64,000 bases of DNA, from positions 62,001 through 126,000 of the forward strand of contig JAFGDZ010000072.1 in the NCBI GenBank assembly GCA_016931855.1, in the 5' to 3' direction. This DNA comes from Bacteroidales bacterium (GTDB lineage Bacteria; Bacteroidota; Bacteroidia; Bacteroidales; Tenuifilaceae). This document shows positions 53,611-57,141 of this stretch, piece by piece (positions within the stretch are counted from its first letter, which is position 1; each line of letters opens with the position of its first letter). The position numbers and the translations under genes were made by a program. The notes beneath the pieces are model-generated. The model saw only the letters and a list, made by a program, of their open reading frames with translations, was not told the origin of the DNA and ran no database searches.

Positions 53611-54747
53611 CTATGGGTTAGCTAGGGTTAAGTTAGCCTCATCAACAAAGATGCTTTCGGTTCCATCGCGTAAGTTATACCGTGAACTCATGGACTCACC
53701 GTAGGCTCCTGCTGAGTGAATGGCAAGTATGTCGCCCTGCTTTAGCGCAGGGAGCTCTATGTTGGAAGCAAATGTGTCTGTGCTTTCGCATATTGGGCCA
53801 ACAACATCGTACAAATCAACGGCGAGGGAACGGGTGTCAACAACCTCAATCTTGTGCTTGGCTTGGTAAAGGGCGGGGCGAATAAGGTTGTTCATTCCGG
53901 CATCAACAACAGCAAACTTGCGTTCGTCGCTTTGTTTTACGTAGAGCACTTTGGTTAGCAAGTCTCCGCACTGCCCAACCAGTGAGCGCCCAGGCTCAAA
54001 GTGTATGCTGATATTCCTAGAAATCCTCAGGTTTCTGTAGAAGGCAAGGAAGTACTCAGCAAAATTTGGGATTGGGCTATCGCTTGGGTTATCGTAGTCA
54101 ATACCTAGTCCGCCTCCCAAATTTAGGTACGATATATTCAGCTGCGCATAATGCCTTACAGTGATATTGGCGTAGTGTGCAAGTTGAACGAATTTTTTGA
54201 GATCAAGTATTTGTGATCCGATATGGAAATGAAATCCAATGAATTTTACCCATTGGAGCGAGGGGAGCGTATCCACAGCCTGAATCAGTTCCCTATTGCT
54301 TAGCCCAAACTTGTTTCGGCTTGTTCCCGTGGTGATATGCTGATGCGTTCCAGCATCGAGATTGGGGTTTAGGCGCAAGGCAATGGTTGCAGTTTTTTCC
54401 AACCGGGCCGATATCCGGTTAATTAGCTGCAGCTCCTCAATGGATTCTACATGGATACAGGCAATTCCGATGCTAATGGCAAGTTCAATTTCACTTTCCG
54501 TTTTACCCACTCCCGCAAAAACAATGGACAGAGGGGCAAAGCCAGCATTTATGGCCGCTGTAATTTCGTTGCCGCTTACACAATCGGCTCCAAATCCCCT
54601 TTTCGCAATGGTTTCAAGTATAGTGCTGTTGTTATTGGCCTTTACCGCATAATGGAGTGTGTAATTGTACCTGTTGGCCTCTGTTTGTGCGGTGGCAAGG
54701 GTTTCCTCAAGTAACCTAAGGTTATATCTATAAACGGGTGTTTCCAT
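53611..54747 (-). CDS. lysA: Diaminopimelate decarboxylase
   Basis: 378 aa, PLP fold-III enzyme making lysine from meso-diaminopimelate. The PLP lysine is Lys36 in LHYAVKANNN; also FGADCVSGNEI, FIGFHFHIGSQI, LNLGGGLGIDYDNP, FEPGRSLVGQCG and the second-subunit motif GPICESTDTFA. The active site ends with GAYGESMSSRYNLR. It begins two bases after the lysC stop, so the pair is one transcript dedicated to lysine. A terminator follows. Confidence 0.96.
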   Translation of the reverse strand: METPVYRYNLRLLEETLATAQTEANRYNYTLHYAVKANNNSTILETIAKRGFGADCVSGNEITAAINAGFAPLSIVFAGVGKTESEIELAISIGIACIHVESIEELQLINRISARLEKTATIALRLNPNLDAGTHQHITTGTSRNKFGLSNRELIQAVDTLPSLQWVKFIGFHFHIGSQILDLKKFVQLAHYANITVRHYAQLNISYLNLGGGLGIDYDNPSDSPIPNFAEYFLAFYRNLRISRNISIHFEPGRSLVGQCGDLLTKVLYVKQSDERKFAVVDAGMNNLIRPALYQAKHKIEVVDTRSLAVDLYDVVGPICESTDTFASNIELPALKQGDILAIHSAGAYGESMSSRYNLRDGTESIFVDEANLTLANP

Positions 54748-54749
54748 GG

Positions 54750-56087
54750 CTAGTGTTGTTCAATTGTTATTTCGGTTGATACTACTGTTTGAAGCGCCAT
54801 TAGCGCTGCTTGCTTGTGCGTGCTGCTCACCAAAATGGAGATGTTATGCGAGCTCCCGCCGTAGGATATTAGCCCAATAGGGATATGCTTTATCGCGTTA
54901 AGCACTTGAGAGGCGATACCTGGTTTTTCGGCAACAAATTCGCCCACAATGCAGATAATGCTGTGGTTGACCGATACCTCTACGGAGGAGAACTCCCGAA
55001 GCGCATCAGTAATTTTAGGTAGATTTGATGTGTCGTCAATGGTTAGCGTAATTGCTACCTCTGATGTGGTAATTAGGTCAACCGCTGTTTTTTGCTGCGC
55101 AAAAACATCAAAAACCCGTTTTAAAAAGCCGTAAGCCATCAGCATGCGTAGCGATTTAATTCTAATGGCGGTAATTCCATCCTTCGACGCCACGGCGCGT
55201 ATCCCGTTGGCTCTGTAGCTCGATGTTATTCGAGTGCCTGGGTCGGTTGGGTTTAGGGTGTTCTTTAAAAGTACTGGTATCCCTTTTTCTCTACAGGGGT
55301 GAATGGTTGATGGGTGCAGAATCTTTGCTCCAAAGTAGGCAAGCTCTGCAGCCTCGTCAAACGATAGCTCGCGTATGGGCGATGTGCCGCTCACGTAGCG
55401 TGGGTCGTTGTTATGAAAACCGTCAATATCAGTCCAAATTTGCACCTCGTTGGCATCAATGGCGTTGCCAATTATTGCAGCGGAGTAGTCGCTGCCACCC
55501 CTTTTTAGGTTATCTACATGCCCTTTGGCGTTACGGCAAATAAAGCCTTGGGTAATAATAATGTTAATGCCCGAACAGGCATCAAGCAAGCGGTTTAGGC
55601 TCTCGGTTATGTAAAACAGGTCTGGTTCTTCGTCCTTGTCAATCCGCATAAAGCCCAGCGCTGGAATTAATGCCGAAGGAACCTGTTGCTCCTGCAAGCA
55701 GAGGTGGAACAGTGCTGTTGATGAGAGCTCGCCCAGCGCAAGAATCTCCTTTTCTATGTTTGTGGGTACGTTGGGCGCCAAAACCATGTCAATAGCCTTG
55801 TTGAACATCTTTCTTATTAACTCTTTACCCTTCATTTTAAACTCCGATGTTCTGAATAGCTCATTGCACGTTTCCTTGTGCTTTTTCTCTACCTGTTTTA
55901 GCAGCTCCACTGCTTTTGGGGTTTCCTGCATTGCAACCATTGCCGCGCTATCAACCAGCTGGTTGGTAACTCCTGCCATGGCCGATAGAACCACAATAAC
56001 GGGTTCTCTGCTCGGTACAATTTGTGTGAGCCTTTGGATTCGCTCCGCAGAACCTACTGAGGTTCCGCCAAATTTTAAAACTTTCAT
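54750..56087 (-). CDS. lysC: Aspartate kinase
   Basis: 445 aa, first enzyme of the aspartate family (Lys, Thr, Met, Ile). The kinase domain begins MKVLKFGGTSVGSAERI and includes TQGFICRNAKGHVDNLKRGGSDYSAAIIG and EVQIWTDIDGFHNNDPRYV; two ACT domains for feedback control fill residues about 300-445 (IRIKSLRMLMAYGFLKRVFDVF, ICIVGEFVAEKPGIASQVL). It is not fused to homoserine dehydrogenase or LysA. Upstream on the same strand lie a 41-codon frame and a terminator only about 25 bases before its ATG, with no promoter between, so its transcription must pass that terminator. Confidence 0.96.
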   Translation of the reverse strand: MKVLKFGGTSVGSAERIQRLTQIVPSREPVIVVLSAMAGVTNQLVDSAAMVAMQETPKAVELLKQVEKKHKETCNELFRTSEFKMKGKELIRKMFNKAIDMVLAPNVPTNIEKEILALGELSSTALFHLCLQEQQVPSALIPALGFMRIDKDEEPDLFYITESLNRLLDACSGINIIITQGFICRNAKGHVDNLKRGGSDYSAAIIGNAIDANEVQIWTDIDGFHNNDPRYVSGTSPIRELSFDEAAELAYFGAKILHPSTIHPCREKGIPVLLKNTLNPTDPGTRITSSYRANGIRAVASKDGITAIRIKSLRMLMAYGFLKRVFDVFAQQKTAVDLITTSEVAITLTIDDTSNLPKITDALREFSSVEVSVNHSIICIVGEFVAEKPGIASQVLNAIKHIPIGLISYGGSSHNISILVSSTHKQAALMALQTVVSTEITIEQH

Positions 56088-56110
56088 CTTGTTTTGAAGG
56101 GTTAGAGTAA

Positions 56111-56143
56111 AACAAAAAAGGCCTGCAGATTCTGCAGGCCTTT
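56111..56143 (-). terminator. Intrinsic terminator upstream of lysC, likely attenuator
   Basis: Perfect inverted repeat, arms 56131-56143 and 56117-56129 (AAAGGCCTGCAGA / TCTGCAGGCCTTT), then a minus-strand tract TTTTTTGTTTT. It lies 29 bases after the small frame's stop and about 24 bases before the lysC ATG. GCAGGC (56193-56198), inside the small frame, is complementary to GCCTGC of its first arm and could form a competing pairing. Confidence 0.85.
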
Positions 56144-56172
56144 ACCATTATTTAGAGTTATAAGAGTTTACA

Positions 56173-56298
56173 CTATCTTCCCATTTCTCCTAGCCTGCTT
56201 AGGTTAATACGTTTCTTTATAGACATGGACATAGCCATCTCTACGCGTTTGTACTGCTTAGAAACCTTTAACGAGCTATTTGAAATATTTGCGTTCAT
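56173..56298 (-). CDS. Small 41-aa frame upstream of lysC, candidate leader peptide
   Basis: ATG at 56298, TAG at 56173-56175. The product is basic, with the cluster MAMSMSIKK at residues 21-29 (56212-56238): five Met and five Lys in 41 residues. Met and Lys are end products of the pathway that lysC begins. It is followed by a strong terminator and then lysC on the same strand. This layout fits a leader peptide for ribosome-mediated attenuation: stalling at the Met/Lys codons would leave GCAGGC at 56193-56198 free to pair with the terminator's first arm. The competing pairing is only 6-7 bp against 12-13 in the terminator, so the mechanism is a proposal. Alternatively it is a genuine small protein; I recognise no homologue. 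Confidence 0.55.
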   Translation of the reverse strand: MNANISNSSLKVSKQYKRVEMAMSMSIKKRINLSRLGEMGR

Positions 56299-56424: not shown

Positions 56425-57141
56425 ATGAAGATACCTAACGTAAAAACCTTAATGACCCGAGGGGTAACCATTAAGGAAGAGAAGGTTAAATCGTTAACCG
56501 CAAATGTACTTCCGCACACAATGGTTCTTGAAAACTATGAGCCTTACCCTGGTTACTACGGATATTCTCATCCACCATTCGACCCTACACCACGGTCAAT
56601 TTTTATTGTGCTTGCTAAGGATTATAATAATCTGGAGCTTGCTAGGGTTATGGTAAAAGTGGGGCGCGAACGCCTTCACGATTGCGATGGAACAATAGGT
56701 TATATTAAGGTTGATAACGATACGTACCAGTGTATTAGGATAAAGCACTTACCCTGCTTTGATGAGATTCCCGATATTCAGAATAGCTTTATAAGCAACG
56801 GAATAGAGATGTTAAAGCACAAGGAGATAGATAAGCCTGTTCTTATTACGGTGCACAAATCGTTCCTTGTTGAAGTGGTTGCTGATGGGGTTTACAAAAA
56901 TATAACTGAGGAGAATAAGTTTTACTTTGAACTAGATTCGGCTCTAACGTGGGAGCAGTTTAAGGCTGCTACCGAAGCGGTTAGGAATAATATACCAAAC
57001 AACCTGTTTGACGCCGCATTAGGGTTCTTTTGGGCGCTACAAGGCCCTGCCGATGTTGTTCGTATTTACGATACCAAGGCAAAGCTAGAGCGAGTAAATG
57101 AGATTAAACGTTTTTACGACGCAGCAATTAAGCGGTTGTAG
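56425..57141 (+). CDS. Protein of unknown function
   Basis: 238 aa, no signal peptide or membrane segment, start at the first ATG. Not recognised. It has an aromatic, proline-rich segment near the N-terminus (LENYEPYPGYYGYSHPPFDPTPRSIFIVLAKDYNNLELARVM) followed by mixed alpha/beta sequence and a basic helical C-terminus (AKLERVNEIKRFYDAAIKRL). The FIVLAKDYNN stretch looks like a buried strand followed by a helix. It is divergent from the small frame upstream of lysC and ends at its own terminator, so it is monocistronic. Confidence 0.7.
   Translation: MKIPNVKTLMTRGVTIKEEKVKSLTANVLPHTMVLENYEPYPGYYGYSHPPFDPTPRSIFIVLAKDYNNLELARVMVKVGRERLHDCDGTIGYIKVDNDTYQCIRIKHLPCFDEIPDIQNSFISNGIEMLKHKEIDKPVLITVHKSFLVEVVADGVYKNITEENKFYFELDSALTWEQFKAATEAVRNNIPNNLFDAALGFFWALQGPADVVRIYDTKAKLERVNEIKRFYDAAIKRL

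Follow-up and report, generated by a model that had tools for sequence, protein, structure and literature searches.

A candidate ribosome-mediated attenuator with methionine and lysine codons upstream of the lysC-lysA operon in Bacteroidales

In the window, the 64-kb stretch of DNA analysed here, the lysC-lysA operon is preceded by a short reading frame with clustered methionine and lysine codons, which is followed by a terminator. This leader is very probably a ribosome-mediated transcription attenuator of the operon, in which a ribosome stalled by methionine or lysine starvation would permit read-through into lysC. At the sequence level, the proposal is carried by the anatomy of the leader and its conservation, by selection for Met codons, by the placement of the Lys codons relative to the antiterminator strand, and by compensatory changes in one of the competing helices.

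Anatomy of the lysC leader

All features of the leader and the operon lie on the minus strand. The lysC gene (54750-56087, ATG at 56087) encodes an aspartate kinase of 445 aa (TIGR00657, 300.2 bits, above the cut-off); its top-scoring equivalog, lysine-sensitive aspartokinase 3 (NF006570), reached 383 bits, under its cut-off of 455. Directly 3' of it lies lysA, encoding diaminopimelate decarboxylase (53611-54747; TIGR01048, 394.8 bits, above the cut-off). The leader frame, located at 56298-56173, comprises 41 codons and a stop, MNANISNSSLKVSKQYKRVEMAMSMSIKKRINLSRLGEMGR, with the Met/Lys cluster MAMSMSIKK at codons 21-29. The -7 promoter consensus of Bacteroidota is TAnnTTTG, and a probable -7 box for the leader mRNA, TAATATTG, was assigned at 56324-56317 by motif match only. 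Judged by the looser motif TAnn[AT]TTG, 15 of 18 species have a box 26-30 nt upstream of the leader start codon.

Four segments of the leader can form competing helices. Region 2, GCAGGCT (56192-56198), is the antiterminator strand and lies inside the leader frame, while region 3 (56132-56143) and region 4 (56117-56128) are the 5' and 3' arms of the terminator, followed by the T-tract TTTTTTGTTTT (56109-56119). The core of region 3 (56140-56134) pairs with region 2, GCAGGC at 56198-56193 being complementary to GCCTGC at 56139-56134. Codons 28 and 29 (56212-56217) form a Lys pair, with starts 19 and 16 nt upstream of region 2. Early in the frame, region 1 (56263-56286, tentative in the window species) can pair with region 2 if no ribosome is located between them, and folding predicts a hairpin over the Met codons between regions 1 and 2 (56244-56219), possibly a pause hairpin. 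A preliminary description of this DNA had reported the 41-codon frame with its Met/Lys cluster, the terminator and the lysC ATG, as well as the ability of GCAGGC to pair with the first arm of the terminator, and all of these were found in place; region 1, the partner of GCAGGC, and the hairpin between regions 1 and 2 had been overlooked.

The terminator stem (56143-56117) consists of 12 pairs, seven of them G-C, and a 3-nt loop. It ranks first among 16 terminator-like sites between 52000 and 60000, where shuffled sequences gave a mean of 10.0 sites (sd 3.5), so that the weak sites are close to chance. By a strict rule (stem of at least 9, at least 5 G-C, TTTTTT) the window contains six strong terminators, both strands counted. 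The other five are located 18-22 nt past the stop of a same-strand frame of at least 114 aa, and only the lysC terminator follows a short frame (with at least 4 internal Met) and precedes an operon. That it serves the upstream neighbour was ruled out, since this gene (56425-57141) is divergent. Read on the plus strand the same stem has a poor tail, ACCATTATTT, yet passes a lax terminator rule. As already stated in the preliminary description, the gap between the terminator and lysC holds no TAnnTTTG; judged by motif, a promoter is absent there in 18 of 18 species, even with the looser TAnn[AT]TTG.

The genome encodes a second aspartate kinase of 426 aa (L101, G000:C64:3311-4381), for which neither a terminator in the 400 upstream bases (by the fixed rule given below) nor, by eye, a leader was found.

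Conservation and codon selection

Of the 27 genomes in the window's family, 16 possess a close lysC at E<=1e-60; locus L020 was left out of this count as it belongs to the same genome as L005. All 16 loci, including that of Perlabentimonas gracilis (Tenuifilaceae), show a leader frame of 37-46 aa, a terminator, and GCA[A/G]G late in the frame. The frame starts 198-227 nt and the terminator ends 23-40 nt upstream of lysC. In 15 of the loci lysA follows lysC; the contig of the sixteenth ends within lysC. A covariance model places the element beside lysC at E<=1e-12 in all 16 genomes, 14 of whose sequences had been used to build it, with only L017 and L018, both near L016, standing outside. Weak matches elsewhere (E 0.004-0.085) were obtained in four of the 16 genomes. 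The other 11 family genomes (G001, G002, G004, G005, G007-G010, G012, G021, G022) lack a close lysC of this type at the E<=1e-60 threshold, and the model did not detect the element in them at E<=0.01 (one match at 0.025).

Among 295 genomes sampled from the order, 94 contained a lysC at E<=1e-120. In a second family (f80), both genomes in which lysC was found carry the element (L103 and L104, both part of the covariance model). Weak matches in the order reach up to 53 bits, in a scan with 8 candidates per genome and strict filters that weak relatives may escape. The control set consisted of the sequences upstream of 87 other lysC genes of the order (27 loci and 60 stretches), with f80 included and the window's family excluded. 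A fixed rule (hairpin of at least 7 pairs with a T-tail, ending 10-150 nt upstream of lysC) identified a terminator at 16/16 family loci versus 11/87 of the others. At nine of these 87 a short frame additionally precedes the terminator, and eight of the nine are leader-like: L103 and L104 with Met and Lys, L126, L137, L144, L146 and L168 with Lys, and L118 weakly so. The Met/Lys form of the leader was seen in two families only. The alignment upstream of lysC proposed in the preliminary description bears its expectation out, with frame, Met/Lys codons, antiterminator segment and terminator kept in 16/16 family and two f80 genomes. The same description had named, as evidence against an attenuator, homologues that keep lysC and lack the frame and terminator; within the two families both are kept throughout, while outside them such homologues do occur (terminator in 11/87 and leader in 8/87, the two f80 loci being counted in). 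Judged by these genomes, the element is lineage-specific and not general to lysC of the order, because most other lysC genes there have no terminator and leader.

Lys-rich leaders of other kinds were noticed before lysC in Marinifilum, Chryseobacterium, Myroides and Paenimyroides. The Marinifilum loci (L021-L026) have the Lys-rich leader MRFTFKYKKQNKRNKQLLFV and a terminator ending 79-91 nt before lysC. Flavobacterial lysC leaders (L081, L082, L085, L086, L088, L089, L096, L097 and L099) are likewise Lys-rich (e.g. MILSNLKKGKKQYLRRTS). In most of those printed, though not in L082 and L085, the frame end with its stop (GTCGTGA) is complementary to TCACGAC in the terminator loop and 3' arm, a different antiterminator layout. 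In five other Bacteroidales loci (L048, L053, L065, L070 and L075) a short frame ends near GGTCTG; by eye, this sequence is able to base-pair with CAGACC or CAGGCC in a terminator located just upstream of lysC.

Within the 16 family leaders, Met accounts for 80 and Lys for 98 of 651 non-start residues. Met exceeds its frequency in dinucleotide shuffles in 16/16 leaders (each p<=0.024), and Lys exceeds the shuffles at p<0.05 in 12/16. The leader of the window contains 4 internal Met compared with 0.47 expected, a number reached in 0/500 dinucleotide shuffles; it is not itself enriched in Lys (5 vs. 4.42 expected, p 0.48 in shuffles). One alignment column is Met in 16/16 family leaders, and L005 and L104 contain 7 internal Met each. 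Over 18 leaders, ATG occurs 90, 3 and 2 times in the three frames, the leader frame first, and 62, 2 and 1 times in 12 representatives, counts that are not independent as the leaders are related to each other. Between genera the leader frame is shifted against region 2, such that SRL, RRL, CRP, LQA and KQA are read over the same GCAGGC. As ATG is biased 90 to 5 towards the leader frame despite this shift, we read the bias as selection for Met residues and not for ATG-bearing hairpins alone. Cys contributes 26 of the 651 residues (leaders L007-L012 and L014-L019), partly within region 1; it may be driven by the RNA or represent a third sensed residue.

The Lys codons are distinguished by their position. 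Each of the 18 leaders has a Lys codon whose start lies 14-20 nt upstream of region 2, which is about the distance from the A-site codon to the leading edge of the ribosome. A ribosome stalled at codons 28 or 29 would thus leave region 2 just outside. The peptides are only 12-57% identical to the window leader, and a protein search with the leader peptide retrieved only itself among the 27 family genomes. As the search found no relative, conservation was read at the level of the RNA and the codons.

RNA pairing and proposed mechanism

Region 2 is GCA[A/G]G in 17 of the 18 species, and L104 has GTAGGC with a compensating partner. The segment is conserved while being read in different frames, and invariant columns are few except in regions 2-4 and at the Met/Lys codons. 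The antiterminator helix between regions 2 and 3 can form in 18/18 species, with 92.2% of the aligned cells paired. One compensatory change, from C-G to U-A, was observed in L104. The excess stability of matched over mismatched partners is weak (418 of 20,000 permutations), and the pair counts scarcely exceed those of shuffles (30/500), two species being mismatched in the core; the covariation signal is weak because the core hardly varies. The preliminary description had regarded the 6-7 bp of this pairing as its weak point. This length holds for the window species, while the pairing is longer in some relatives, reaching 13 pairs interrupted by a bulge in L015 and L016.

In the helix between regions 1 and 2 the pairing sequences differ by genus, for example CGGCTTGCT with AGCAGGCCG, TTTGGCC with GGCCAAA, and TTTCACCT with AGGTGAAA. 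Matched partners gave higher stability than mismatched partners (0/20,000 permutations; 14 of the 18 species, chosen by us), and RNAalifold finds the helix unprompted in 15 sequences, with changes on both sides in four of six pairs. Ten cells show such both-side changes, which was reached in 0/500 shuffles, and by paired cells and covariation score the register is the best of seven slides. Of the 84 aligned cells 18 are unpaired, two sequences have gaps there, two of five measures are unremarkable (37 and 234 of 500 shuffles), and L006 and L103 have only a weak helix. Region 1 of the window species forms a bulged duplex of -11.7 kcal/mol, which with ranks of 3/14 and 8/14 is not outstanding. 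Folding places a hairpin between regions 1 and 2 in every one of the 18 species. Its arms frequently contain ATG, but the 5' arm in L011 pairs without one. For the 59-nt segment of the window the predicted energy is -10.3 kcal/mol, a value without a shuffle control. From these predictions, the hairpin is possibly an RNA-polymerase pause hairpin.

Equilibrium folding was used to compare the states of the leader. If region 2 is accessible and region 4 still to be transcribed, the 2:3 helix has a probability of 0.85-1.00 in 18/18 species. Once region 4 is present this probability falls to 0.00-0.01 in 17/18, and to 0.32 in L017. Equilibrium folding ends in the terminator and was rejected as a proof of switching. 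As the terminator wins once region 4 exists, antitermination, according to the folding model, must be kinetic; in classical attenuators, too, antitermination is a matter of timing. Without a ribosome, the 1:2 helix loses to 2:3 at equilibrium in 16/18 species, so that in the model it can act only early.

From these elements the following course of events can be proposed. The mRNA would probably start 10-15 nt upstream of the leader ATG. With ample Met-tRNA and Lys-tRNA, the ribosome would pass the Met/Lys cluster and region 2 and reach the stop codon. Region 2 would then be covered by the ribosome or paired with region 1, such that regions 3 and 4 could form the terminator, leaving lysC untranscribed. 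Under Met or Lys shortage, the ribosome would stall at the Met/Lys codons, ~14-46 nt upstream of region 2, and block region 1, leaving region 2 free to pair with the nascent region 3. This 2:3 pairing would delay the terminator beyond the T-tract, and transcription would continue into lysC-lysA. Judging by the leader sequences, Lys and Met are most likely the signals, Lys because of its fixed codons near region 2 and the presence of lysA in the operon, and Met because of the selection at the codon level.

Alternative explanations and comparison with known systems

The main rival to this reading is an attenuator that senses Lys only, its ATG triplets being due to the CATG-bearing arms of the hairpin between regions 1 and 2 and not to Met sensing. 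The prediction of this hairpin in 18/18 species with ATG often in the arms would fit, as would the Lys-rich lysC leaders of Marinifilum and flavobacteria with few or no internal Met, and the fact that lysA makes lysine only. We nevertheless consider a Lys-only sensor unlikely: ATG is nearly confined to the leader frame in spite of the genus-level shift against region 2, L005 and L104 reach 7 internal Met each, and one alignment column is Met throughout the family. It appears probable, though with less confidence than attenuation as such, that the branch-point aspartate kinase of Bacteroidales is controlled by a single leader that responds to shortage of Met or Lys and so to two end products of the aspartate pathway, with Met read via elongator tRNA-Met although it is also the starting residue. 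If so, the Met sensor would have been added (or lost) within Bacteroidota, as the leaders of Marinifilum and flavobacteria are rich in Lys and have few or no internal Met.

A metabolite riboswitch or a protein-bound antiterminator, with the frame being incidental, would account for the conservation of helices 1:2 and 3:4 and of the intervening hairpin. Against it stand the in-frame retention of Met and Lys codons, the small number of invariant columns besides these codons and regions 2-4, and an Rfam search of the window and of seven relatives' loci in which no family reached its gathering score; we regard this explanation as very improbable. Even less credible is a functional small protein encoded by chance before the terminator and lysC. 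The frame is open over 37-46 codons in 18/18 species, but the low peptide identity, the lack of a relative in the protein search of the 27 family genomes, the retention of the C-terminal part as RNA in different frames and the terminator directly after the frame all speak against it.

Control of aspartate kinase by a leader RNA is known from Bacillus and E. coli, where the lysine (L-box) riboswitch regulates lysC. The element described here is alike in acting at the leader RNA of this gene and differs in that the riboswitch has a ligand-binding aptamer, of which Rfam detects none at the window lysC; the lysine aptamer family had no match in the window. Searched at E up to 10, Rfam gave low-scoring matches only; among its leader families the best were Thr_leader (24.2 bits) and Phe_leader (24.8 bits), both over the terminator and each with a cut-off of 55 bits. 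A Met-codon leader has been proposed as an attenuator before metNIQ in Streptomyces lividans, the metL leader (PMC8079986); as far as described in the parts of that report considered here, it resembles ours in its Met codons and differs in belonging to a transporter operon of another phylum, with no typical terminator and no Lys codons. In Flavobacterium psychrophilum, of the same phylum, leader-peptide attenuation, a mechanism of the same kind, has been noted before amino-acid biosynthesis operons (PMC9723704); a search of its main text for lysC, lysine or methionine gave no match. In the open-access literature (PMC) we recognised no lysC leader peptide or Met/Lys attenuator in Bacteroidota, although an earlier prediction is possible, and the articles found hold little on the control of the aspartate pathway in this phylum. 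A Met/Lys leader at the branch-point kinase would be a two-input switch open to direct testing, and an uncommon candidate for a translating ribosome that senses methionine. As Lys-rich, Met/Lys and leaderless versions exist in related groups, the gain or loss of attenuator inputs could be traced.

Ribosome-mediated attenuators of amino-acid operons are represented by trpL, hisL, thrL and ilvL of Enterobacteria, and in trp the control codons stand ~15-20 nt before region 2. The lysC leader shares with these systems a peptide rich in the regulating residues, competing 1:2, 2:3 and 3:4 helices, a control codon at ~15-20 nt before region 2, and a terminator directly before the operon. It differs from them in its host, a member of the Bacteroidota, in matching no Rfam leader family at the cut-off, in having region 2 inside the frame, and in the position of the control codons, which lie between regions 1 and 2 and not within region 1. 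The kind of mechanism is hence already known; what is unusual is the signal pair, Met and Lys.
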